Below are positions 10,735 through 36,825 of a DNA stretch of 38,703 nt, piece after piece. Positions within the stretch are counted from its first letter, which is position 1; every line of letters begins with the position of its first letter. The notes beneath the pieces are model-generated. The model saw nothing but the letters and a program-made list of their open reading frames with translations, searched no databases and was not told where the DNA came from. The translations under genes and the position numbers were made by a program. Source of the stretch: a virus; the IMG/VR virus record IMGVR_UViG_3300033148_003971, positions 1-38,703 of that record; one strand, given 5' to 3'.

Positions 10735-11661
10735 CTAAGTCATTTTTTGCTTAGTTACAAAAGCTTTAACTGGTGTCGGCACAGTTGCTGTGTTCCAGAT
10801 TTCCGCTCCCATATTACGTTTTACTTCAACTACTGCATCAGCAGTTAGTAAATCCCCGCTATCTTCTCCCGCTGTCGTGAAGCTTGAAATTTCACGATCA
10901 AACTCTTTGATTTTATCGTCTCGATACGCATGAATTGGCGCACCTGCGATCCCGAAGATCATTTGTTTTTGATCTGCAAAAGAAGTGTTTGAATTAATAA
11001 CCCAAACCCCTTCAGGAGATTTGAACATGTTGACCATGTCGTCTGCGTTTCCTGTCGCTGTTAATTTGTAAGTATCGTAAACAACACGAATTGCTTTAAA
11101 TGCTGTTGAATCGGCGATTACAAACGGTTGTCCGTTGTACTTAGCTCTAATAACAGATCCATGCTCAACACTTGGCTTCCATCGGAATTGATTATTAGCG
11201 GCGATTAATGCCACATCAGCCATGAAGGTGTGAACGTTTGCTGCAGTTCCCAAGGCAATTGTTCCTGATCCCACGGTTGCGCCTGCTAAAACACCTACTG
11301 TAAAGTTTGTGTTTAGCTTTAAAGTAATCCCAGCAAGAATGTCCTCCTTGATTAAGGCTTTAAATCCTACCTCGTCTCCCATAAATTCATCCTCGCAATA
11401 ATCAACAGACAGATCTGTTTTATTATTTAATGAGATTTGCACATTACCAGGCGTCGCCGTCCCAATAGATGTTTTGCATGATAAACTATGATTTTTCGCG
11501 ACCGATGTTGAAATGGTTGGGACATCAAGTGTCCATGCTTTCGCTCGAACTACTGTTGTAATTGGCGAGAACACCCGCATTTTTTCAAATACTGATGCTA
11601 TTTTCGTTTTCAGCGTGCTATTCTGAATTAATGCTGTTGGCACTGCTCCTACTGTACTCAT
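10735..11661 (-). CDS. Major capsid protein
   Basis: A protein of 308 residues, starting MSTVGAVPTALIQ. It follows an acidic scaffold-like gene and precedes the adaptor. The helical N-arm, the beta-rich middle (DLSVDYCEDEFMGDEVGF) and the late domain with SFADQKQMIFGIAGAPIHAYRDD are the layout of HK97-fold capsid proteins. No cleaved delta domain is obvious; the separate scaffold would make one unnecessary. The call rests on size, order and general pattern. Confidence 0.75.
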   Translation of the reverse strand: MSTVGAVPTALIQNSTLKTKIASVFEKMRVFSPITTVVRAKAWTLDVPTISTSVAKNHSLSCKTSIGTATPGNVQISLNNKTDLSVDYCEDEFMGDEVGFKALIKEDILAGITLKLNTNFTVGVLAGATVGSGTIALGTAANVHTFMADVALIAANNQFRWKPSVEHGSVIRAKYNGQPFVIADSTAFKAIRVVYDTYKLTATGNADDMVNMFKSPEGVWVINSNTSFADQKQMIFGIAGAPIHAYRDDKIKEFDREISSFTTAGEDSGDLLTADAVVEVKRNMGAEIWNTATVPTPVKAFVTKQKMT

Positions 11662-13604: not shown

Positions 13605-13787
13605 TTATACTTTATTAATTAACAAACTTTTTAAATACTCAAATTTATTAAACATCCCTTTAAGGGGATCTTTCTTTCCAACGTCTCCCATAGACTTTGA
13701 AAAACAATGTGTAAAGGGCTTTCGCCTTTGTCTCTTTGGGGTTACAATGCCCTGACTTCTTTTTGATTTAGTTCTATCGTATTTCAT
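13605..13787 (-). CDS. Small basic protein
   Basis: A strongly basic protein of 60 residues (MKYDRTKSKRSQGIVTPKRQ). Its ATG overlaps the portal stop by four bases, suggesting coupling to the portal. Its charge would suit nucleic-acid contact inside the head, but no family was recognised. Confidence 0.55.
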   Translation of the reverse strand: MKYDRTKSKRSQGIVTPKRQRRKPFTHCFSKSMGDVGKKDPLKGMFNKFEYLKSLLINKV

Positions 13788-15454
13788 CTTATATCATTAA
13801 TAAATTCAGTAATTTCCAATTCATCCAATCCTAGATTTTTTGCCTGCCTCTTCATAATACCAATGTATTTAGGATCGTCAAGGATCTGTGGGTTTGCCAT
13901 ATATCGTTCTTCAATCCCATTGAAAAATTCAGTCTTAACTTGTCGTGATACTTTTTCACCAGAAACGACAATCTGAATTGCCTTAACATCTTCACGTAAC
14001 GCTTCAAGCATTTCTTTTGAGATGATCTTTTTGTCATTCTTAAACTCTTTTCTTAGTTTGACTTCCTCATCTTGTAATTGTTTTTGAACCTCTCCTGGCT
14101 CCATCCCTTGACCGAGCAATTCAGCTTGTTTAACTGCTAGTTCAAAATCAATGATATTCTTTTTTACTACGTTCCATTCTGTAGGATTTAGATATTTCTT
14201 TACATTGTCCTCTGAACTAAACACCTTCAAGATATATGGCAAGATATAATTTGTATATTCATACTCAGAAACTCTGGCATAACGTTTTTTTACGTCTTTA
14301 TGCACACTTGAGGCGTTTTCTGCTAAAGATTGGATTGCTATTCCTGAAGTATTAGCCCCAAGAGTTTTAGCGTCTCCATTTAAAACCTCTGGAACATTTA
14401 ACATTGTCTGGTAAAGTTCTTTAGTTTGTCCTATTTTAGTCATAAGCTCATTTAATTGAGCCTGTCCATCAATCCTGACTGCTTGAGGGATATTCTCAAG
14501 ATCTGTAACAGGAATAATCAAACCTGTTTTTAAGTTTTGGATCTGTTTGTTTTGGACTTTATCATTTTTCCCATCTACTTTTTTTGCCAAAACCAATTTA
14601 GAAGCAATCGCTTCTACTTCATTATATCGCTCTCTAGCTACTTTATTTTGAACAACTACGTTCATAATCTTTTCAAATACCCCACGCCCTGGGGCTTCTG
14701 AAAACCCTCGTCTATATTCATGTGAATACATTGTGAAAGCCATTCCTTTTGGTCTATCTCCCTCTAAAAACACTAGATTATTAAGAATGTCCACAATATA
14801 CATATTCTCTTTGTCCACATATTGGAAGAGATCAATTCTTTTACCTGTTTTCTTCTCTAAATCATCTTGATAGATATTTTCTAAATCTGTCCTAGCTTCT
14901 TGTTTATATCTTTCATTATCCACGACTTCTTGAACAGTCCTATTTATTTTGATAATCTTTGGTGATTCCGTGAAATTGTGCAAATTCCAGATAAGCCTTT
15001 GAGGTGATAAATGTTTATGCTTTTGAACACCTTTAACCTGATAAATCATCTTATAACCCGAACCGTACCAGTTCGCGTCATCTGTCACACGTTCTTGAAC
15101 TTCAGTCCAATCATTATTAATCGTGAGAGCTTTTCTGTTCGCCGCTTTGGCTATATATTTAGCCAATTCAGAATGACCCTCGACAATAAATCCTAATTCT
15201 TTAAAATCAATTCTAGTTTGCTCATTAATTTTTGTAATAGTATCCAAGAAATCCGCAACAAAATTATGTGGATTCTTTTCATCCATCAAATCAGGGTTTT
15301 TCGCGTCCACTCCGTGCAGATACAAATAAGCAATATTGATAAACTTGTAATATTGAAACCTATAGCCAAGGTTTCCAACCTCAAGGCTCCCATTCTCCCA
15401 TTGGTTAACCAATGCTTTTGTTTCTTCGATTATCTTTTCGTCTTTTTCTGTCAT
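13784..15454 (-). CDS. Portal protein
   Basis: A protein of 556 residues, a normal size for a dodecameric portal. It has an N-terminal helical and beta-rich wing (NNDWTEVQERVTDDANWYGS, FTMYSHEYRRGFSEAPGRGV), central helices (ARERYNEVEAIASKLVLAKK, IGQTKELYQTMLNVPEVLNG) and a charged C-terminal tail. GANTSGIAIQSLAENASS resembles the stem and crown segments of SPP1-type portals. Placement near the terminase genes agrees. The two short plus-strand genes separate it from the large terminase. Confidence 0.7.
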   Translation of the reverse strand: MTEKDEKIIEETKALVNQWENGSLEVGNLGYRFQYYKFINIAYLYLHGVDAKNPDLMDEKNPHNFVADFLDTITKINEQTRIDFKELGFIVEGHSELAKYIAKAANRKALTINNDWTEVQERVTDDANWYGSGYKMIYQVKGVQKHKHLSPQRLIWNLHNFTESPKIIKINRTVQEVVDNERYKQEARTDLENIYQDDLEKKTGKRIDLFQYVDKENMYIVDILNNLVFLEGDRPKGMAFTMYSHEYRRGFSEAPGRGVFEKIMNVVVQNKVARERYNEVEAIASKLVLAKKVDGKNDKVQNKQIQNLKTGLIIPVTDLENIPQAVRIDGQAQLNELMTKIGQTKELYQTMLNVPEVLNGDAKTLGANTSGIAIQSLAENASSVHKDVKKRYARVSEYEYTNYILPYILKVFSSEDNVKKYLNPTEWNVVKKNIIDFELAVKQAELLGQGMEPGEVQKQLQDEEVKLRKEFKNDKKIISKEMLEALREDVKAIQIVVSGEKVSRQVKTEFFNGIEERYMANPQILDDPKYIGIMKRQAKNLGLDELEITEFINDIR

Positions 15455-21625: not shown

Positions 21626-21703
21626 ATTATATCCAATCGCGGATCAAAGTCAACCCATTTTCCCAAAGAAAGGGGTTGACTTTGGAATTTGGCGTGCTAG
21701 AAT
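21626..21703. promoter_or_regulatory. Divergent early promoters sharing a 12-bp inverted repeat
   Basis: CAAAGTCAACCC (21645-21656) and GGGTTGACTTTG (21673-21684) are perfect complements. Each arm contains a TTGACT -35. Leftward: TTGACT (21653-21648), 16 bases, TATAAT (21631-21626). Rightward: TTGACT (21676-21681), 16 bases, TAGAAT (21698-21703) with a TGC extension. One repressor dimer could control both arms. The rightward start site falls at about 21710, the first base of the tRNA-like element. Confidence 0.7.
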
Positions 21704-21709
21704 GAGGGC

Positions 21710-21780
21710 GTGGAGGTAGCTAAATTAGCGTAGAGCTCATTGATCACGAGCGTGCAAGTTCGAATCTTGTTCTCCACACC
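21710..21780 (+). tRNA. tRNA-like element 1, abnormal anticodon arm
   Basis: The acceptor stem GTGGAGG pairs with TCTCCAC (one G-T). The T arm is GCAAG-TTCGAAT-CTTGT. The D region (TAGCT...GTAGAGC) is recognisable but imperfect. Only about 17 bases lie between the D and T arms, roughly six fewer than normal. A forced arm (GCTCA-TTGATCA-CGAGC) would give anticodon GAT but borrows D-stem bases and has an A-C mismatch. It may be a truncated tRNA, a decayed copy or a deliberate mimic. Confidence 0.5.
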
Positions 21781-21816
21781 TTTTATTTTTTAACGAAAAC
21801 AAGATGAAAAAATTCG
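21778..21816 (+). repeat. 39-bp direct repeat, copy 1
   Basis: Matches 22121-22159 with one mismatch. It spans the leader (TTTTTTAAC, then AAAACAAG) and the first codons (MKKF) of the gene at 21804. Confidence 0.85.
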
Positions 21817-22159: not shown

Positions 22160-22186
22160 GTAAAACATGGGGCTAGAGCATTGAAT

Positions 22187-22267
22187 GTAGAGGTAGCTCA
22201 AATGGCTAGAGCGTTGCACGCGCGATAAAATGAGAACAAAGATGCAGGTTCGAACCCTGCCCTCTAC
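22187..22267 (+). tRNA. tRNA-like element 2, abnormal anticodon region
   Basis: Acceptor GTAGAGG / CCTCTAC, D arm GCTC-loop-GAGC and T arm GCAGG-TTCGAAC-CCTGC are all perfect. The 30 bases between the D and T arms do not form a 5-bp anticodon stem with a 7-base loop in any register tried by eye. The acceptor helix extends five more base pairs outward (TGAAT / ATTCA), giving 12 continuous pairs from 22182 to 22272. GGCTAGAGC also occurs just upstream at 22170. It may be a degenerate tRNA or a tRNA mimic. Confidence 0.55.
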
Positions 22268-22280
22268 ATTCAGTTCTTTT

Positions 22281-28411: not shown

Positions 28412-28428
28412 CTATTGTTAAAACAGAT

Positions 28429-28530
28429 GACACTACTCACTTATTCAATTCTAATTTGCCCACTTCTTTCGAGTAGTGTCCTTAGTGGTGGGCTATTTAG
28501 AGTTGAATAAATTTATTAACAGGACACTAC
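28429..28530 (+). promoter_or_regulatory. Candidate replication origin: large hairpin and GACACTAC repeats
   Basis: Arms 28441-28463 and 28488-28510 pair over 23 positions with three mismatches, around a 24-base loop. GACACTACTC (28429-28438), its exact inverse GAGTAGTGTC inside the loop (28471-28480), and AGGACACTAC ending at the initiator ATG (28521-28530) give three copies of one motif. The context, directly before a replication-type gene, suggests initiator binding sites or autoregulation. Confidence 0.55.
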
Positions 28531-29211
28531 ATGGCAAATATTGAAATTATACGGATACCATCTGGCTATCATAACCAGATAAAATTTTTACCAGATAAAG
28601 ACGTTGCTTATATTTTTAAGTCTCTTTTTGCCGTCGCTAATAACGAGAAAATTATTGCCGAGGAAAGCATGAGATTTGGCATACTTTCCTCTATTTTTAG
28701 GGAGACGAATCAGATGAATAACAAGGCTCGCGCGAAAAAGAAGCTAAAACCGCTTAAAATAGACCTTGCGACACTGTCGCGCGACGAAGGGGTGCGACCA
28801 AGTAACATAACATCAAGTAACATAACATCAGAGAAAGTAACTAAATGTGAGGGGAAAATTCACACACAAAAAAAATCTGAAATAATTTCTAATGAAGAAA
28901 TGAATAATTATGGAAAAGAAGTTTGTGGAGAATTTGTAAGATTAACTTTTAACGAAAAAAATAAATTAATTGCTGATTGTAAAAATTTAGATCTTTTTAA
29001 TGAAATTATTGAAGAATTAAACCTTGCGATTGGTTGTGCCGATGAAAGCACAATTAAACAGAAATATTCAAATCACTACTACGCTTTTCTAAAATTTTTA
29101 CGGACGAAGAAAAACTCAAAAGAGTTTAAAAATAAAGGGTCAACCGATGCAGAACTAGAAGCACAAATAAATCAACAGTACGACGAAGCTTTAAAAAATA
29201 GAAAATCTTAA
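28531..29211 (+). CDS. Putative replication initiator
   Basis: A protein of 226 residues. The N-terminal part (MANIEIIRIPSGYHNQIKFL; KDVAYIFKSLFAVANN) may bind DNA. A low-complexity linker (SNITSSNITSEK) follows. The C-terminal part (FVRLTFNEKNKLIADCKNL, IIEELNLAIG, KQKYSNHYYAFLKFLR) matches the closing domain of many phage replication-initiation proteins (LT-x-E...LN-x-YI...Y-x-SHY). AGGA lies ten bases before the start, one of few Shine-Dalgarno-like sites here. Confidence 0.6.
   Translation: MANIEIIRIPSGYHNQIKFLPDKDVAYIFKSLFAVANNEKIIAEESMRFGILSSIFRETNQMNNKARAKKKLKPLKIDLATLSRDEGVRPSNITSSNITSEKVTKCEGKIHTQKKSEIISNEEMNNYGKEVCGEFVRLTFNEKNKLIADCKNLDLFNEIIEELNLAIGCADESTIKQKYSNHYYAFLKFLRTKKNSKEFKNKGSTDAELEAQINQQYDEALKNRKS
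28767..28829 (+). repeat. In-gene iterons and hairpin
   Basis: AAGTAACATAACATC occurs twice in tandem (28800-28814, 28815-28829), with a partial third AAAGTAAC nearby, just after a GCGAC-ACT-GTCGC hairpin (28767-28779) and before a very AT-rich stretch. This is the layout of lambda-type origins inside the initiator gene. The repeats encode the flexible linker. Confidence 0.55.
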
Positions 29212-30157: not shown

Positions 30158-30334
30158 ATGACAGACGAAAAAACGGCTTCGATAGATTCAGCAGGTAGAA
30201 TATTTGGAGATGAGAGTTTTGAAGATTTAGGATTAACAAGGGGGAAATTGTACATAACAATGTTCGATACGCCAGAAAATAGAAAACTTCAACAAGAATT
30301 ATTAAACAAATATTTTTACAATGAAAAAAATTGA
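30158..30334 (+). CDS. Small protein preceding the methyltransferase
   Basis: A protein of 58 residues (MTDEKTASIDSAGRIFGDES, then a helical end NRKLQQELLNKYFYNEKN). It overlaps the methyltransferase by 14 bases. Not recognised. Confidence 0.45.
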   Translation: MTDEKTASIDSAGRIFGDESFEDLGLTRGKLYITMFDTPENRKLQQELLNKYFYNEKN

Positions 30335-30959
30335 CGAAATAACAGATTGGCAAGAAATGATTGGCGAAGTTATGCACGCCGATTGTTTAGATGTTATGCG
30401 AAAAATGCCAGATAATTGTGTGGATTTAGTTTTGACTGATCCACCGTATGGGATAGGCATTAGTGGTGGAACAATTGGAAAATATGGAACTAAGCATAAA
30501 AAAACGAATTGGGACGAAGAAATCCCAAGCGGTGAAATTTTTGAAGAAATTCTTCGAGTGTCAAAAAATCAAATTATATGGGGAGGCAATCATTTTGATT
30601 TACCGCGCAGTAATAACTTCATTGTTTGGGATAAGGTGCAGCCAGCCCCTAATTTTGCACAATGCGAATACGCTTTCAACTCAGTAAAAGGTAAGCCTAA
30701 GATTTATAAGTTTGCTTTTAACAAAGAAAGAAATAAAAAACACCCCACTCAAAAACCCCTTGAACTAGGGCGTTGGTGTTTAGAGAATTACACCAAAAAA
30801 GAAGAACGTGAAAAAATGATAGTCTTTGATCCGTTCGGTGGAAGTTTTGCATTTGCGCGAGCGTGCCAAGGCATGGGGATTAAATTTATTTCTTGTGACA
30901 TGGAAAAAGAATACTGCGAAATAGGGGAAAACAGACTTAAACAGCAAAATTTATTTTGA
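30321..30959 (+). CDS. DNA methyltransferase (N6-adenine or N4-cytosine type)
   Basis: A protein of 212 residues. DPPYG at 40-44 (motif IV), NHFDLP in the middle, HPTQKP and then FDPFGGSFAFARA at 169-181 (motif I) in that order define the beta class. Motif I ends GSF where GSG is usual. SAM-dependent methylation of the phage DNA could protect against host restriction or mark replication. No partner nuclease was seen, so a solitary methyltransferase. Confidence 0.85.
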   Translation: MKKIDEITDWQEMIGEVMHADCLDVMRKMPDNCVDLVLTDPPYGIGISGGTIGKYGTKHKKTNWDEEIPSGEIFEEILRVSKNQIIWGGNHFDLPRSNNFIVWDKVQPAPNFAQCEYAFNSVKGKPKIYKFAFNKERNKKHPTQKPLELGRWCLENYTKKEEREKMIVFDPFGGSFAFARACQGMGIKFISCDMEKEYCEIGENRLKQQNLF

Positions 30960-30983
30960 CAAACCCCCCAAAATAAATATACT
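30956..30983 (+). promoter_or_regulatory. Promoter of the putative small RNA
   Basis: TTGACA (30956-30961), 16-base spacer, TATACT (30978-30983). The -35 overlaps the methyltransferase stop. Start expected near 30990, just before the first hairpin. Confidence 0.65.
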
Positions 30984-30989
30984 ATTTGT

Positions 30990-31074
30990 GTCGCTTGAGT
31001 GGAGTCAAGCAATTAATTGTACAAAGTAATTAGCCATTAGCGCACTCCACAGTAGCTAATGGTTGGTTTCTTTT
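30990..31074 (+). ncRNA. Putative small RNA with complementary hairpin loops
   Basis: Hairpin 1: GCTTGA-GTGGAG-TCAAGC (30993-31010). Hairpin 2: CCATTAGC (31034-31041) pairs with GCTAATGG (31055-31062), extended by wobble pairs, and its loop holds CTCCAC (31045-31050). The six-base loop of hairpin 1 is the exact complement of that segment, so the two can kiss. TTGGTTTCTTTTT follows, as in an intrinsic terminator. A discrete RNA of about 80 bases, or a leader attenuator for the gene at 31088. Confidence 0.6.
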
Positions 31075-31087
31075 TATTATATATCAA

Positions 31088-31324
31088 ATGAAAAAACTTA
31101 AAACCGTAAACGAAATACTAAGAATTAGGATTGAAAGGGCGAGGAGTGTTTATGTTTCTTTCTTTATTGGAATGTGCTTTTTTATAATTCTTTATGTACT
31201 AAGTATTTTTACAATAAAGAACTACAGAGGCATTATTAAGGACTATCAAGGACAACTTGAGAAACAACAAGTGTATTTCGACACTGTCCAAGAGATTGCA
31301 AAAACTTGTCTTAACGAAAAATAA
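31088..31324 (+). CDS. Membrane-anchored protein, spanin-like inner subunit (putative)
   Basis: A protein of 78 residues. A basic N-terminus (MKKLKTVNEILRIRIERARS), a span at about 22-43 (VYVSFFIGMCFFIILYVLSI) and a 35-residue charged helix outside. With the lipoprotein gene starting one base after its stop, the pair has the plan of an inner spanin and an outer-membrane lipoprotein, but small. Confidence 0.5.
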   Translation: MKKLKTVNEILRIRIERARSVYVSFFIGMCFFIILYVLSIFTIKNYRGIIKDYQGQLEKQQVYFDTVQEIAKTCLNEK

Positions 31325-31325
31325 A

Positions 31326-31529
31326 ATGAAAAAACTACTAATTATCGTTATCGGCTTGGGGTTGTGTGGGTGTGTTTGTCATCCTAATTCATATTCAGAC
31401 TGTCTAACAGTTTGTGATAGAGAACTGATTGGCGACCGTGCGATTGTAGAGTGCGCAGAGAGATGTCTCGAGTCAGGTTTTGAGAGATGTGATAAAATTG
31501 AAAATTATAAAAAACAAAATAAAAAATGA
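31326..31529 (+). CDS. Small lipoprotein with twin CX3C motifs
   Basis: A protein of 67 residues from ATG 31326. MKKLLIIVIGLGLCGCVC is a lipoprotein signal with a lipobox-like GLCGC. The mature part has CLTVC and CAERC separated by about 12 residues, a pattern that makes a disulfide-linked helical hairpin. It would sit in the outer membrane or periplasm. Spanin outer subunit is one option, superinfection exclusion another. Confidence 0.55.
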   Translation: MKKLLIIVIGLGLCGCVCHPNSYSDCLTVCDRELIGDRAIVECAERCLESGFERCDKIENYKKQNKK

Positions 31530-32035
31530 AAGAGAACCTATCGCTTACGGCAAAAAGAGCCCTTCTCTTTTTGCATTTGGCCAGTAAAGAGTGGGAATTT
31601 GGAGTGAAATATAAACTTCTAAAAGGAAATCGTGCTGGCACAGTTGGAATAGTAACGTCTTCTACAGAGCATGGATTAACTTCTAATGATTTCGCAAATG
31701 TAGACGGAGAAACCTTGGATAGATCAAGTTGGTACGAATTCATCGGAAAGCCAATCATGATTGGCGATGTTTTGGAAGAAATGTTTTTTGAAAAAGACGG
31801 CATTGAATTAATGAAAAAATGGGGGGCGATAAAGGAAAACGTAACTGACAAAATGTTTTCAAAAAGTTTGAACGAAATCCTAAATAGTGAAATCTGGGAT
31901 CATTATGAGACGCTAGATGATGATCGTACTGTTGTCGGAATGAAGGGAGAATATAAGAATAAAAACATCCAATTCCTCTGGACGTTTTTATGGGGGAGGT
32001 TTGAGGGGGAAATTTTAAAAACTAACAAACAATAA
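31526..32035 (+). CDS. Protein of unknown function
   Basis: A protein of 169 residues, starting MKENLSLTAKRALLFLHLAS. A beta-rich first half (YKLLKGNRAGTVGIVTSS) and a helical C-terminus (DGIELMKKWGAIKENVTDK). Overlaps the lipoprotein by four bases. Not recognised. Confidence 0.5.
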   Translation: MKENLSLTAKRALLFLHLASKEWEFGVKYKLLKGNRAGTVGIVTSSTEHGLTSNDFANVDGETLDRSSWYEFIGKPIMIGDVLEEMFFEKDGIELMKKWGAIKENVTDKMFSKSLNEILNSEIWDHYETLDDDRTVVGMKGEYKNKNIQFLWTFLWGRFEGEILKTNKQ

Positions 32036-32036
32036 A

Positions 32037-32216
32037 ATGATGAGCGATGAACAAGTAGAATGCCCATATTGTGGACAAACTCAGGATATGGATTGCGAAG
32101 ACGGAGAGAATTACCAAGATGGAGGTCGCTGTCGTACTAGTTGCGATAAATGTGATGAAACCTTCATGATTAATACTTCTGTTTTATACAATAGAGAAGG
32201 CGTAAAAATAGGTTAG
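32037..32216 (+). CDS. Small zinc-ribbon protein
   Basis: A protein of 59 residues. CPYCG and later CRTSCDKC form two Cys pairs as in a zinc ribbon, with acidic residues between. One of several tiny Cys-rich proteins on this arm. Function unknown. Confidence 0.55.
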   Translation: MMSDEQVECPYCGQTQDMDCEDGENYQDGGRCRTSCDKCDETFMINTSVLYNREGVKIG

Positions 32217-32230
32217 TTCCATTATGGAAC
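32216..32230. repeat. Short perfect palindrome
   Basis: GTTCCAT-T-ATGGAAC lies directly after the zinc-ribbon stop and about 30 bases before the next start. A candidate operator or mRNA hairpin. Confidence 0.4.
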
Positions 32231-32258
32231 ATACCACTATTTAATAATTTAAAAAACT

Positions 32259-32672
32259 ATGAATCACTATGAAAAATTACGGCAAAAAGTGAATGAGATT
32301 ATTCCTCAAAGGGTGGAGAAATTTAAATTTATGGATGAAGTGGAAACAGTCCCAGATCAAGGGGAAGTCTCACAAATATTCACTATCATGCGAATTAAGG
32401 ATTACAGAAAAGGAAAAATAGAAGTCTGTGGTTATGACATAGATGCTACATATTTCAATTATGATGTTAGAATTTTAAAAAACCTCGGAAAACCCATTAC
32501 TATTCTGGAGGTGATGGCGGCGTATAGGAGAGAGGATAATGGATATTTATTTTCTTTTGACAGGGATTTAAGAGTGGATTTAACAACTGTTTTAGACTAT
32601 GACTTTGACTATTTAGCCCCCCTATCCACCCAAGAAGGGTTGTGCGGGGAATTGTTAACACTTTTTAAATAA
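32259..32672 (+). CDS. Protein of unknown function
   Basis: A protein of 137 residues, starting MNHYEKLRQKVNEIIPQRVE. It has alternating helices and strands (QIFTIMRIKDYRKGKIEVCG; KPITILEVMAAYRREDNGYL). Similar short proteins that open with a charged helix are common on phage early arms. Not recognised. Confidence 0.5.
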   Translation: MNHYEKLRQKVNEIIPQRVEKFKFMDEVETVPDQGEVSQIFTIMRIKDYRKGKIEVCGYDIDATYFNYDVRILKNLGKPITILEVMAAYRREDNGYLFSFDRDLRVDLTTVLDYDFDYLAPLSTQEGLCGELLTLFK

Positions 32673-32673
32673 A

Positions 32674-32838
32674 ATGAGATATTTATTAATAAACACATCG
32701 GACATAGAGCTGGTCAAAAAGAAGCTACTCGAAATCTCTATGAGAGCCACCTTCAATAATAACACGCTAAAAGTTCATGAAAATAATATAGACTATGTAA
32801 CAGATATGCTTAGTGACAATAATATCGAATATCAATAA
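32674..32838 (+). CDS. Small protein of unknown function
   Basis: A protein of 54 residues (MRYLLINTSDIELVKKKLLE, ending in SDNNIEYQ). One base between the previous stop and its ATG. Not recognised. Confidence 0.45.
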   Translation: MRYLLINTSDIELVKKKLLEISMRATFNNNTLKVHENNIDYVTDMLSDNNIEYQ

Positions 32839-32843
32839 AAATG

Positions 32844-32876
32844 ACCCCTCAGGGTGCGCAAAGAGGCGTGAGGGGT
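32844..32876 (+). terminator. Intergenic hairpin
   Basis: ACCCCTCA (32844-32851) pairs perfectly with TGAGGGGT (32869-32876) around a 17-base loop. No T-tract follows, so termination is uncertain; mRNA stabilisation is an alternative. Confidence 0.45.
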
Positions 32877-32906
32877 ACTAACTAACTTATTATAACAAAC
32901 TATCAA

Positions 32907-33167
32907 ATGAAATACAGGATTAAAAAAGTCACAAATAAAAAGGGACAGTGTTTATATCAGATTGAGCGAAGAATGTTTTTTATAACATGGTGGCATATAT
33001 ATGACTATCAAATTGGCAAATATATTCAATCAGAATACACCAGTTTAAGTAATTGCCAACAAATAATTAAAACATTACTTTATCGCGAGGAAAATGAAAT
33101 CAAAGAGGTGCGGGAGGCGAAAACAGCTAAAACAGAAATAATCCCCTATAACCCAAAAGAAAAATGA
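32907..33167 (+). CDS. Small basic protein
   Basis: A protein of 86 residues, starting MKYRIKKVTNKKGQCLYQIE. Beta-rich and aromatic (MFFITWWHIYDYQIGKY), then helical. The start resembles the family of small MKYRI proteins on phage early arms. The TGA overlaps the next ATG. Confidence 0.5.
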   Translation: MKYRIKKVTNKKGQCLYQIERRMFFITWWHIYDYQIGKYIQSEYTSLSNCQQIIKTLLYREENEIKEVREAKTAKTEIIPYNPKEK

Positions 33168-33340
33168 AATACAGACTTAATAAAATTATTGCTAAATTTA
33201 TTGTTTTATTCGTTATCTGCGGCACATTGTGGCTTGCCTTAATGTTTTCCATAGCGAATAAGGAATTTCTTGTTAAAATTGAAGAAGGGAGGGGCAAGCC
33301 GCAGGAATGTATTTGTATAAATAACCCAAAAGAAAAATGA
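33164..33340 (+). CDS. Small membrane or exported protein
   Basis: A protein of 58 residues, starting MKYRLNKIIAKF, with a hydrophobic span at about 11-31 and a Cys pair near the end (ECICI). Overlaps its neighbours on both sides by four bases. It may be an anchored periplasmic peptide. Confidence 0.5.
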   Translation: MKYRLNKIIAKFIVLFVICGTLWLALMFSIANKEFLVKIEEGRGKPQECICINNPKEK

Positions 33341-33773
33341 AAACCAAGCTATCATTGGAAACGGCAAAACAACTTGATGAGTGGGGGTGTGACGTGGAGA
33401 GTAAATATTCCACGTGGAAGAGTGTGACGAAGGAAGCATGTCTTATGAGGTCAACCTTATTAATAATGTATCGGAATCGTCAGGCGACCTTGGTCACAGA
33501 AAGATCTTATTTCCAACCTACGACCTCCGAGACATAATATGTAACGGAGAAATGGCGAAGGCGTTTTTTGGCGAAGAAGAAACAAATGAGGATACGTATT
33601 TAATAAGAGATGTGGAATATGGAAATATACAAGAGCAGGATGTAACTTTATCGGAAGAGCCCGCATTTATTTTACATACAACAGTCATTAAAAATTTACT
33701 CCAACAAAACAAACAAAAAGAAGCAGAAGAGTATTTACTGCAACACACAATCTTTAACCCAAATAAAAAATGA
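33337..33773 (+). CDS. Phage protein interrupted by a -1 frameshift
   Basis: MKTKLSLETAKQLDEWGCDV (frame of 33337) has the opening of a known phage hypothetical family, and YDLRDIICNGEMAKAFFGEE, then LLQQNKQKEAEEYL (frame of 33414), has the middle and end of the same family. The two frames overlap at 33405-33537 and the second is -1 relative to the first. No classical slip heptamer is visible, so an indel (natural or technical) is more likely than programmed frameshifting. Confidence 0.55.
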
Positions 33774-34276
33774 AAACCCTAAAAAAACTATCGGCATCAA
33801 AAATTGAAGACCTAACAGATAGAGAGTTGGGGGAGTATATTCGGAGATTGAGGAATGAGGCGATTCCTCCGAAGTTCTGTAAATTTGAAGAAATACGATA
33901 TTTACCAGAAGATGCTAATCCATTTATTCACAACCATAAAACTGTATGGCTAATTAACGAAGTTATTAGTTCAGGATTTGGAGGAACGGTTGGTCTACAT
34001 TGTGTAGATTCTTTGGGATATTCTGTTTTTGTAAAAAAAGAGAACGGTGAAAACCTAGGACTCCCAACATCTTTACCTGATATACTTATGATGATAGGAT
34101 GTGATAATGGAGATGAGTATGTACACGTATTTTATGAAAAGAAGGCAGTTACACTTGAATTTCAGTCTGCGTGTAATGGAGAGACCGTTAAGCCAATCGT
34201 GATAGATGTGACAGAAAAAAACATAGAAAACCAAGACAGAGAAACTCTTATTTCTTTAATTAATTTATTACGATGA
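33770..34276 (+). CDS. Protein of unknown function
   Basis: A protein of 168 residues, starting MKTLKKLSASKIEDLTDREL. The helical start (LGEYIRRLRNEAIPP) is followed by a beta-rich core (HKTVWLINEVISSGFGGTVG) and a terminal helix (DRETLISLINLLR). The end recalls the leftward gene at 18607. Overlaps both neighbours by four bases. Confidence 0.5.
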   Translation: MKTLKKLSASKIEDLTDRELGEYIRRLRNEAIPPKFCKFEEIRYLPEDANPFIHNHKTVWLINEVISSGFGGTVGLHCVDSLGYSVFVKKENGENLGLPTSLPDILMMIGCDNGDEYVHVFYEKKAVTLEFQSACNGETVKPIVIDVTEKNIENQDRETLISLINLLR

Positions 34277-34485
34277 AAAAATGTAAATGTTGTGAACTAA
34301 AAACCTCTCTCACATTTTCAAGTTTTGACGGAGACGAACGAATCCCTATGTGCGTCTCATGTCGAGAGGAATATATCAATATGGAATTTGAAAGAATTGA
34401 GGCAGAATCCGTAGACACTAGAACTCCTTATCAGAAAAAGACAGATTATGATAAATATGTAACAAGAATCAAATCACTTAATTAA
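34273..34485 (+). CDS. Small zinc-ribbon protein
   Basis: A protein of 70 residues. MKKCKCCELKTSLTFSSFDG followed by CVSCREEYINMEFE: CxCC and CxxC form a zinc ribbon with a helical tail. Function unknown. Confidence 0.5.
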   Translation: MKKCKCCELKTSLTFSSFDGDERIPMCVSCREEYINMEFERIEAESVDTRTPYQKKTDYDKYVTRIKSLN

Positions 34486-34520
34486 CCCCCTTAAAGGGTT
34501 ACAATAACAATAACATCACA

Positions 34521-34607
34521 ATGAAAGACTTCATACGAACAATGACAATACCAACGATTGTGGGAGTGGTTATGGGAGTTGCGGTGGCATTATTTTTTAA
34601 CTTTTAA
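34521..34607 (+). CDS. Micro membrane protein of 28 residues
   Basis: MKDFIRTMTIPTIVGVVMGV continues with a hydrophobic helix to the end. A 3-base gap to the next gene supports coding. A small hairpin (AACCC / GGGTT) lies just upstream. Confidence 0.45.
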   Translation: MKDFIRTMTIPTIVGVVMGVAVALFFNF

Positions 34608-34610
34608 ACT

Positions 34611-34946
34611 ATGAACAAACTCGCAAAACAATTACAACAAGCATTCTACCTATCCCTTCATGGGGAGGGGTGGGAAGATAAAATTAGGGTGGTTGGAGAT
34701 CCCAACTGCCTGTATGGCAATTGTTGGCAGGTTTTTTTAGGATTCCCCGTAAACGCTGAAATGCTTCTTGAGGTGTTGGGGAATCAGTATGCATGTGGGA
34801 ACAATAGGATCGTAAGGGTCGTTGCAACTTGTGAAGAGTATCTTTGCGAGGTTTATAGTGTCTGTGACTGGATTTCCAACACTCCCCTCCATTTGCAGAG
34901 TGAGAAAACGCAAAAGATTATGCTTAAATTAATTTTGAAGAAATGA
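34611..34946 (+). CDS. Protein of unknown function
   Basis: A protein of 111 residues with six cysteines (PNCLYGNCWQVF; YACGNNRIVRVVATCEEYLC; SVCDW). Helices at both ends. The TGA overlaps the next ATG. Not recognised. Confidence 0.5.
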   Translation: MNKLAKQLQQAFYLSLHGEGWEDKIRVVGDPNCLYGNCWQVFLGFPVNAEMLLEVLGNQYACGNNRIVRVVATCEEYLCEVYSVCDWISNTPLHLQSEKTQKIMLKLILKK

Positions 34947-35104
34947 GCTATTACAGTAGAGGCACCTGGATAAATTGCAGAAAGTGTGGCGAATTGTATT
35001 TTTCTGAATTCTTAATGACTGATAGAATGTTAGAATTATGCCCAGAATGTAAAAAACAAGAATTTAAATACTCTAATAACACTAAAAATGAAAAAACTAT
35101 TTAA
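34943..35104 (+). CDS. Small zinc-ribbon protein
   Basis: A protein of 53 residues. WINCRKCGELYF and ELCPECKKQEF give CxxC twice with a typical spacing of about 20. Overlaps the next gene by 17 bases. Confidence 0.5.
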   Translation: MSYYSRGTWINCRKCGELYFSEFLMTDRMLELCPECKKQEFKYSNNTKNEKTI

Positions 35105-35231
35105 ATGGATTCGGCAGATACCTTGTAATCATGAAAAAGAGATGGGATATTATGGAAACGATAATGAGATATATCCTGTCTCATATTTTTGCAAGAAATG
35201 CGGAAAGGAATTCTGGAATTATAAACAATAA
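35088..35231 (+). CDS. Small Cys/His protein
   Basis: A protein of 47 residues. IPCNHEKE and YFCKKCGKEFW give a C-x-H and CxxC pair, a probable zinc site. Starts inside the previous gene. Confidence 0.45.
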   Translation: MKKLFKWIRQIPCNHEKEMGYYGNDNEIYPVSYFCKKCGKEFWNYKQ

Positions 35232-35232
35232 T

Positions 35233-35261
35233 TTGACTAAAGACTATATAGTCTTTATAAC
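35233..35261 (+). promoter_or_regulatory. Promoter containing a 20-bp perfect palindrome
   Basis: TTGACT (35233-35238), 17 bases, TATAAC (35256-35261). The palindrome TAAAGACTATATAGTCTTTA (35238-35257) fills the spacer and touches both boxes. Start expected near 35268, giving a leader of about six bases before the ATG at 35274. A dimeric repressor site is likely. Confidence 0.6.
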
Positions 35262-35273
35262 CTTAATATAAAT

Positions 35274-35429
35274 ATGAAATCAAAATGTTGTTCGGCTACG
35301 GTAATTGCTCGCGGTGGATGTGAAGATCAAAAATGCAACGAAAAATGCAGTACCAATCACACGTGGTACTATGAATGCACGAAATGCAATCAGCCCTGTG
35401 ACAGTAATTTAATGACAATCACAAAATGA
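35274..35429 (+). CDS. Cysteine-rich small protein
   Basis: A protein of 51 residues with nine Cys (KCCSATV; GCEDQKCNEKC; YECTKCNQPCD), close to a zinc ribbon. Expressed from a palindromic promoter with almost no leader. Overlaps the next gene by four bases. Confidence 0.5.
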   Translation: MKSKCCSATVIARGGCEDQKCNEKCSTNHTWYYECTKCNQPCDSNLMTITK

Positions 35430-35587
35430 AACTTAAAACACAACACCTTCTCGGATTTATAATTTTCACTATCGTGTCGGCCGTGTTTCTCTATTTAGGA
35501 AGATATGACGCTGGATGCTATGTCACATCTTATTTTGTAGGAATTGCAGCTTTAGTTAGTTTTGGGCTTTGGAGGCTTGAGTGCTAA
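35426..35587 (+). CDS. Small two-span membrane protein
   Basis: A protein of 53 residues with hydrophobic spans at about 8-26 and 33-49 (YVTSYFVGIAALVSFGLW). Last gene of the rightward arm, facing the nuclease gene tail to tail with a 15-base gap and no clear terminator. Confidence 0.5.
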   Translation: MKLKTQHLLGFIIFTIVSAVFLYLGRYDAGCYVTSYFVGIAALVSFGLWRLEC

Positions 35588-35602: not shown

Positions 35603-35989
35603 CTAAAGCAAGTCTAACGTTTTCAAATCTCTCTCAACTTCATCAACGCTAGAACAAAGAATAAACGCCCCCTCAGACTTATTTATTTGTCCTGCCTGCT
35701 CTTTTTGATTAAAAGTGCGGGCGTTATACTTTATTTTCTTTCCACTCAATCCTAGGGGGTATACTTGCCATTTCTCAACCTCTTTAGCATTCTTCTTTAC
35801 CTCTATTCCAACAAACTTACCTTTCACACACGCTAAAATGTCGGGCGTTCCAGCCGTGGCGAGTGTTATTTTATATGGCTTACCGCCTTTGCTCTTTTTG
35901 ATGATTGCTCCTGATTGTACCTTAGTCGCCCACGCGCCCAGTGCAAAGATATATTCAATTATTGATTTCTCGATTTCTTTTTCACTCAT
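35603..35989 (-). CDS. VRR-NUC domain nuclease
   Basis: A protein of 128 residues. ATAGTPDILACVKGKFVGIE with D50, E63 and K65 is the PD-ExK core of VRR-NUC/Holliday-resolvase-like phage nucleases; an N-terminal helix and Q-rich end (NQKEQAGQINKSEGAF) agree. It may resolve branched DNA before packaging. Last gene of the late operon; its ATG overlaps the endolysin stop. Confidence 0.8.
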   Translation of the reverse strand: MSEKEIEKSIIEYIFALGAWATKVQSGAIIKKSKGGKPYKITLATAGTPDILACVKGKFVGIEVKKNAKEVEKWQVYPLGLSGKKIKYNARTFNQKEQAGQINKSEGAFILCSSVDEVERDLKTLDLL

Positions 35990-36825
35990 TATTTTTGCCC
36001 CGCCTCTTTATTCTCGTCTCGGATTTCCAAAGTTCCAGTTGCAACCTGTTTCCCTTTTTTATAGATAAGGTTCGCAAGCGCTGTCATTTCTGGATTAGAT
36101 AGGTTGATTTTGTCGTTATCAACTCCAACTCTAATTGCTGGTAAGAATTGTGTCATCGTCTCAAGCCAACCCCATTCCTTAGCATTAATAAATCCTTTAT
36201 CTTTGTAGAATAATAAAGAAATAACTTGTGGAAAGAAAACCCCAAACGCTTTTATGTATTCCTTCATTCCTGGTGTTTTATCGATTTTATAGCTATCATT
36301 AAGGTCAATTTGCTGGTCGTTTTTTAAATCGGCTGTTTTAGGTGCAACTCGATCCATCAAGTAACGAGAAACGTTGTTAATAACTTGTTCATCATCACGA
36401 TTAAACGCCTTTGAGTTGAATTTGATTCCTGATTTGTTCATTTTATTTTTCTTTTTAGTAATAAGGATTTGTTTTTTTGAGCCGTCATCTTGAAAGTGAT
36501 TCCAATCCCAGCCCCACAACACGCCCCCACAATCTATTCCGTGTTTTTTGGCAATTCTCGCCGCTTGTTCCCAGCGTTCAATATTTTTAGGGAAGTATGG
36601 CGGAATTATAAAATGAAGGTCTGCAGCGTTACCATCTTGATGATTAGATCTTTTTACTTTAGATTTCCCAGACTTAATCAAATAAACCTGCCTCTCATCA
36701 CTTCTTAAAGTCTCATGTGCTGACATTGGGTCGATATTCTCCATCTCATGTAAAAACTCTTTCAGTTTAAACTGGAACATTGAATTTAAATCTATAATAC
36801 TTCGATTTGCTTTTGGTTCTCTCAT
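35989..36825 (-). CDS. Endolysin, M15 peptidase
   Basis: A protein of 278 residues. MSAHETLRSDERQVYLIKSG, then H62 and D69 in NHQDGNAADLHF, then D107 and H110 in WGWDWNHFQ give the zinc and catalytic residues of M15 L-Ala-D-Glu-type endopeptidases. Residues 125-278 form a separate mostly helical domain (AFGVFFPQVISLLFYK, EWGWLETMTQFLPAIR) of unknown role. No signal peptide; release depends on the overlapping holin gene. Confidence 0.85.
   Translation of the reverse strand: MREPKANRSIIDLNSMFQFKLKEFLHEMENIDPMSAHETLRSDERQVYLIKSGKSKVKRSNHQDGNAADLHFIIPPYFPKNIERWEQAARIAKKHGIDCGGVLWGWDWNHFQDDGSKKQILITKKKNKMNKSGIKFNSKAFNRDDEQVINNVSRYLMDRVAPKTADLKNDQQIDLNDSYKIDKTPGMKEYIKAFGVFFPQVISLLFYKDKGFINAKEWGWLETMTQFLPAIRVGVDNDKINLSNPEMTALANLIYKKGKQVATGTLEIRDENKEAGQK

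Follow-up and report, generated by a model that had tools for sequence, protein, structure and literature searches.

In late leaders of the phage lambda type, one and the same unit serves as terminated RNA and as gate. The Q antitermination system of lambdoid phages, with its promoter pR' and terminator tR', has been described (PMC6606751), as have the interlocking loops of the phi29-type pRNA (PMC5340915), and small RNAs encoded by phages have been reviewed (PMC12197685).

The element presented here was found in a viral sequence record 38,703 bases long, which was analyzed over its whole length (hereafter, the window). In its layout, compared from general knowledge, it resembles the lambdoid late leader (pR'-tR'): a strong promoter, here a predicted one, precedes a short terminated RNA and a co-directional gene block. 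The differences are that neither a Q homologue, in a non-exhaustive protein search, nor a site for Q binding or a pause element resembling a −10 box was identified here, and that the block on the 3' side of the element is not a late or structural operon. Loop-loop pairing, which is present in the element as complementarity, is not known to be part of the lambdoid system.

Like the phi29-type pRNA, the element would be a phage-encoded RNA some 100 bases long whose two loops are mutually complementary (GTGGAG and CTCCAC). It is, however, built of two hairpins in series, one of them a terminator, rather than around a three-way junction, and the pRNA family was absent among the Rfam matches even at E-values of up to 10. 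The phage itself is not of the phi29 type, and its large terminase is an ordinary one. As for phage-encoded small RNAs, the element shares with them that it is short, structured, intergenic, and probably ended by an intrinsic terminator, but in sequence it is unrelated to those described.

A predicted transcription unit in the early-type gene row

Structural genes in the window are encoded on the minus strand, while an early-type gene row, including genes for a YqaJ exonuclease and a DNA methyltransferase (both profile matches), lies on the plus strand, between about 22 and 35.6 kb. A putative capsid and portal (10735–11661 and 13784–15454, minus strand) were assigned by position only, and had no PHROGs match. 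The genes of the plus-strand row are co-directional and tightly packed, and the gap of 128 bases that holds the element (30960–31087), between the methyltransferase gene and a gene encoding a 78-aa protein, is among the largest in it. A co-directional block of small genes follows on the 3' side of the element (31088–35587, plus strand). The features of the element and the genes flanking it are listed in Table 1.

Table 1. Features of the element and its flanking genes, in window coordinates
Feature	Position	Strand	Basis or remark
N6/N4 DNA methyltransferase gene, 5' of the element	30321–30959	+	PF01555, E 5.8e-20; phrog_67, E 9.5e-47
Sigma-70-type promoter TTGACA-16-TATACT, predicted	30956–30983	+	consensus match, 11/12 bases
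−35 box TTGACA	30956–30961	+	followed by a 16-nt spacer
−10 box TATACT	30978–30983	+	
Predicted transcript, about 85–90 nt	30988–31076	+	ends placed from the −10 box and the T-rich tail
Hairpin 1, GCTTGA-GTGGAG-TCAAGC, 6-bp stem	30993–31010	+	sequence, fold
Loop 1 pairing segment GTGGAG(T)	30999–31005	+	exact complement of 31044–31050
A+T-rich linker between the hairpins	31011–31027	+	sequence
Hairpin 2, stem of the terminator-like site (14 bp, some pairs G-U), loop GCACTCCACAGTA	31028–31068	+	fold
Loop 2 pairing segment (A)CTCCAC	31044–31050	+	complement of loop 1
T-rich tail TCTTTTTATTA	31069–31079	+	with hairpin 2, an intrinsic-terminator-like site
78-aa protein gene, 3' of the element	31088–31324	+	one probable membrane span; ATG start 9 nt past the tail

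The −35 box of the predicted promoter shares bases with the methyltransferase stop codon (30957–30959). An earlier note on this DNA had described a consensus promoter here; a near-consensus match was confirmed, and it is the top-scoring promoter match on the plus strand across 22–38.7 kb. Matches of 11/12 bases occurred 6 times in the whole window, counting both strands, versus 1.67 times per shuffled window, so that a promoter match by itself is weak evidence. On the plus strand 3' of the element, no promoter match of at least 10/12 was found; the downstream block would therefore depend on read-through from the element or from further upstream. The gap was said in the same note to have no room for a gene, and indeed the only frames in it, read by eye, are 12–13 codons long (starting from GTG at 30988 or TTG at 30996).

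Downstream of the promoter match, we found both hairpins, their exactly complementary loops, and the T-rich tail as they had been proposed. The core of hairpin 2 consists of CCATTAGC/GCTAATGG (31034–31062), and a palindrome, CAATTAATTG, is located at the linker (31010–31019). The terminator-like site, a 14-pair stem followed by TCTTTTTATTA, sits between the promoter and the first gene of the block. On the minus strand, the same inverted repeats are present, but no T-run follows them. The predicted fold of 30988–31080 has an energy of −29.6 kcal/mol, versus a mean of −17 for shuffled sequences (z −4.2), and none of the 200 shuffles was as stable; an independent run gave a z-score of −5.2. In a scan of 1246 plus-strand stretches, only 4 had a z-score as low as that of the element. 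As a prediction from sequence and statistics, a compact promoter-structure-terminator unit at 30956–31080 is well supported. The earlier note had offered either a regulatory RNA or an attenuator as its role, and between these, position and orientation point somewhat to a leader.

The 2 genes following the element had also been labeled a putative spanin pair, which our searches do not support. Neither the 78-aa protein nor the 67-aa protein matches a spanin family, and the endolysin candidate, an M15-type peptidase (35989–36825), is encoded on the other strand, 5 kb from the pair. The 78-aa protein had no convincing family match in profile searches (Pfam-type and PHROGs), and the 67-aa protein has a lipoprotein-like start.

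Complementarity between the hairpin loops

Exact complementarity between the 2 loops extends over 6 bases, or over 7 if one stem base opens (GTGGAGT/ACTCCAC). As free duplexes, the 6-base and 7-base pairings have energies of −8.0 and −11.8 kcal/mol, respectively, values that exclude the penalty of a loop-loop complex. Loop 1 is open and loop 2 mostly so in the predicted fold, and the price of keeping both fully open is 1.4 kcal/mol. Replacing the hairpins by a nested helix of the two loop segments gives a much worse energy (−15.7 versus −29.6 kcal/mol), suggesting that the segments, if paired, form either a kissing contact or an intermolecular pairing. With 17–23 nt, the linker may be long enough to span stacked (coaxial) loop-loop helices. 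Kissing between the hairpin loops is energetically plausible.

The window was searched with a descriptor specifying two hairpins within 60 nt, each stem 6 bp or longer and the loops complementary over 6 bases, and the element was the sole match. Among dinucleotide shuffles of the window, a 6-base loop-loop match of any composition was present in 174 of 400, a match containing 4 or more G/C in 10 of 400 (2.5%), and such a G+C-rich match together with a stem of at least 8 bp in none of 400. In other viral contigs (about 0.53 Mb, both strands), 41 hairpin-hairpin-T-tail units had loop matches of at most 5 bases, versus 6 here, and a single G+C-rich 6-base loop match occurred in 1,066,412 strand-bases; the loop-match criteria and thresholds were set after the element had been seen, and these figures and those from the shuffles are to be read as guides. 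Taken together, the fold stability and the loop-match statistics argue for a real sequence structure rather than a chance reading. Among the very few other G+C-rich loop matches was a kissing candidate at chance level with similar geometry, AGGGGG/CCCCCT, at about 6150–6212 of L027 (minus strand).

The putative kissing contact would be the statistically unusual feature of a short terminated phage RNA that is itself of a known kind. In its strongest form, the terminator loop would be held by kissing with the upstream hairpin of the same nascent RNA, and loop-loop pairing, either within one RNA or between two copies, would decide termination or build RNA dimers in infected cells, which we consider rather unlikely. 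A literature search found nothing usable on kissing terminators or on put RNA. Should the kissing be real, the element would be a small natural case of a phage terminator that incorporates loop-loop pairing, easily testable in vitro with a 90-base template. Without it, the element would be an ordinary but useful map point, at which the early gene row is split into two transcription blocks.

Readings of the element

We tentatively favor, at a little short of even chances, a reading of the element as a promoter followed by a short, terminated leader RNA, through which the downstream genes are gated. The promoter match, the two hairpins, the complementarity of their loops, the anatomy of the terminator, and the order of the genes are seen in the sequence, whereas transcription, termination, control of read-through, and kissing in the cell are inferred. 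Host RNA polymerase would start near 30988–30990 and make a two-hairpin RNA of about 85 nt, and most transcripts would end at hairpin 2 and the T-rich tail, 9 to 13 bases ahead of the next gene. Read-through, either spontaneous or aided by an antitermination factor of phage or host, would feed the block at 31088–35587, and the same terminator would insulate this block from the early genes upstream. Hairpin 1 may kiss the terminator loop with 6–7 pairs, thereby tuning the folding, the pausing, or the stability of the terminated RNA. The rank of the promoter match, the stability of the fold, the terminator-like hairpin 2, and the unusual loop match speak for this reading. Several points count against a leader: no homologue of the element was found in any collection searched, a non-exhaustive protein search identified no antiterminator protein, and no −10-like pause element was visible by eye in the first transcribed bases. 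In addition, the downstream genes could be transcribed from their own, weaker promoters. No competing antiterminator fold was present among the lowest suboptimal structures.

The main rival, which we regard as a real but lesser possibility, is a small regulatory RNA in its own right. About 85 nt long and acting in trans, it would pair with targets through its loops or the A+T-rich linker, and would kiss itself or form a dimer. A promoter (predicted) and a terminator of its own, a compact size, and accessible loops all fit such an RNA. However, when the loops and linker were compared with the phage's own translation start regions, 30–35 of 60 shuffled segments paired equally well, and the element matched no Rfam family. 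A leader is preferred over a free small RNA because of the size of the gap within the gene row and the lack of a downstream plus-strand promoter match of at least 10/12, though the two are not mutually exclusive. The abundance of promoter-like sequences, at 1.67 matches of 11/12 per shuffled genome, and the occurrence of a G+C-rich 6-base loop match in 2.5% of shuffles leave some room for a plain terminator of the upstream genes, lying beside an unused promoter-like sequence and with coincidental loop complementarity. This would require the promoter, the second hairpin, and the loop match to be independent coincidences within one gap of 128 bases, and as the combination of loop match and a stem of at least 8 bp was seen in 0/400 shuffles, we consider it unlikely.

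Hairpin 1 could also act at the level of DNA, as an operator palindrome just past the promoter that is bound by a phage repressor. It forms a perfect inverted repeat (6-6-6) spanning about +5 to +22, a common place for operators, but copies of the palindrome occur in the window at chance frequency (17 matches with at most 3 mismatches versus 16.7 expected), and hairpin 2 and the loop match would be left unexplained, making this quite improbable. Least probable of all, to the point of being barely credible, is an attenuator based on a leader peptide, in which ribosomes would translate a 13-codon frame (GTG at 30988, stop TAA at 31027–31029) across hairpin 1 and, when at its stop codon, mask the left arm of hairpin 2. 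The frame is present, and its stop lies at the base of hairpin 2. Its start codon, however, would lie at or beside the first transcribed base, with no visible ribosome site, and frames this short are common by chance.

Relatives and other structured sites in the window

The phage is nearly an orphan, sharing little beyond its terminase with the collections searched. Relatives of the terminase reach up to 62% identity among viral contigs, and the closest named one (47.7%) belongs to a phage sampled at Manatee Spring. When all proteins of the window were compared with the records of the terminase relatives, only the terminase and very few others matched, and the region of the element had no match in these records. 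No relatives were found for the neighboring genes, portal, capsid, and exonuclease in viral contigs, nor for the capsid in genome contigs, and a 169-aa downstream protein had no match in viral contigs or phages. Nucleotide searches with the element against phages and plasmids gave only short matches, none of which was above chance, and a search of viral and genome contigs for the loop pattern gave, among the matches listed, none with two good stems and a terminator. Across the whole window, a tRNA (22187–22268) was the only Rfam match above the curated threshold. A weak match to Ref1C (E 1.6, 18 bits versus a threshold of 90) was attributed to chance.

Several other structured sites were observed. 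A tRNA-like sequence at 21709–21781 (plus strand), with an acceptor stem GTGGAGG...TCTCCAC, a TTCGAAT loop, and a possible anticodon GAT, was not called by ARAGORN. It is located one gene before the called tRNA (22186–22269), and both adjoin a duplicated leader, TTTTATTTTTTAACSAAAACAAGATGAAAAAATTCG. The acceptor stem (at about 21710) contains the same 6-mers as the loops of the element, a link that was judged to be a coincidence. Where the two gene rows diverge, a long inverted repeat, AAAGTCAACCC...GGGGTTGACTTT, spans 21640–21690, with an 11/12 promoter match on the minus strand at 21653. The most structured stretch of the window is found at 28426–28530 (plus strand), before the gene at 28531, where a long hairpin carries the loop GAGTAGTGTCC. 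This loop complements both an upstream segment, GACACTACTC (10 bases), and a segment whose end lies immediately before the ATG, GGACACTAC (9 bases), so that two mutually exclusive pseudoknots are predicted; such a two-sided match was seen in none of 200 shuffles. The site is possibly a switch of translation or attenuation, or a triple DNA operator.
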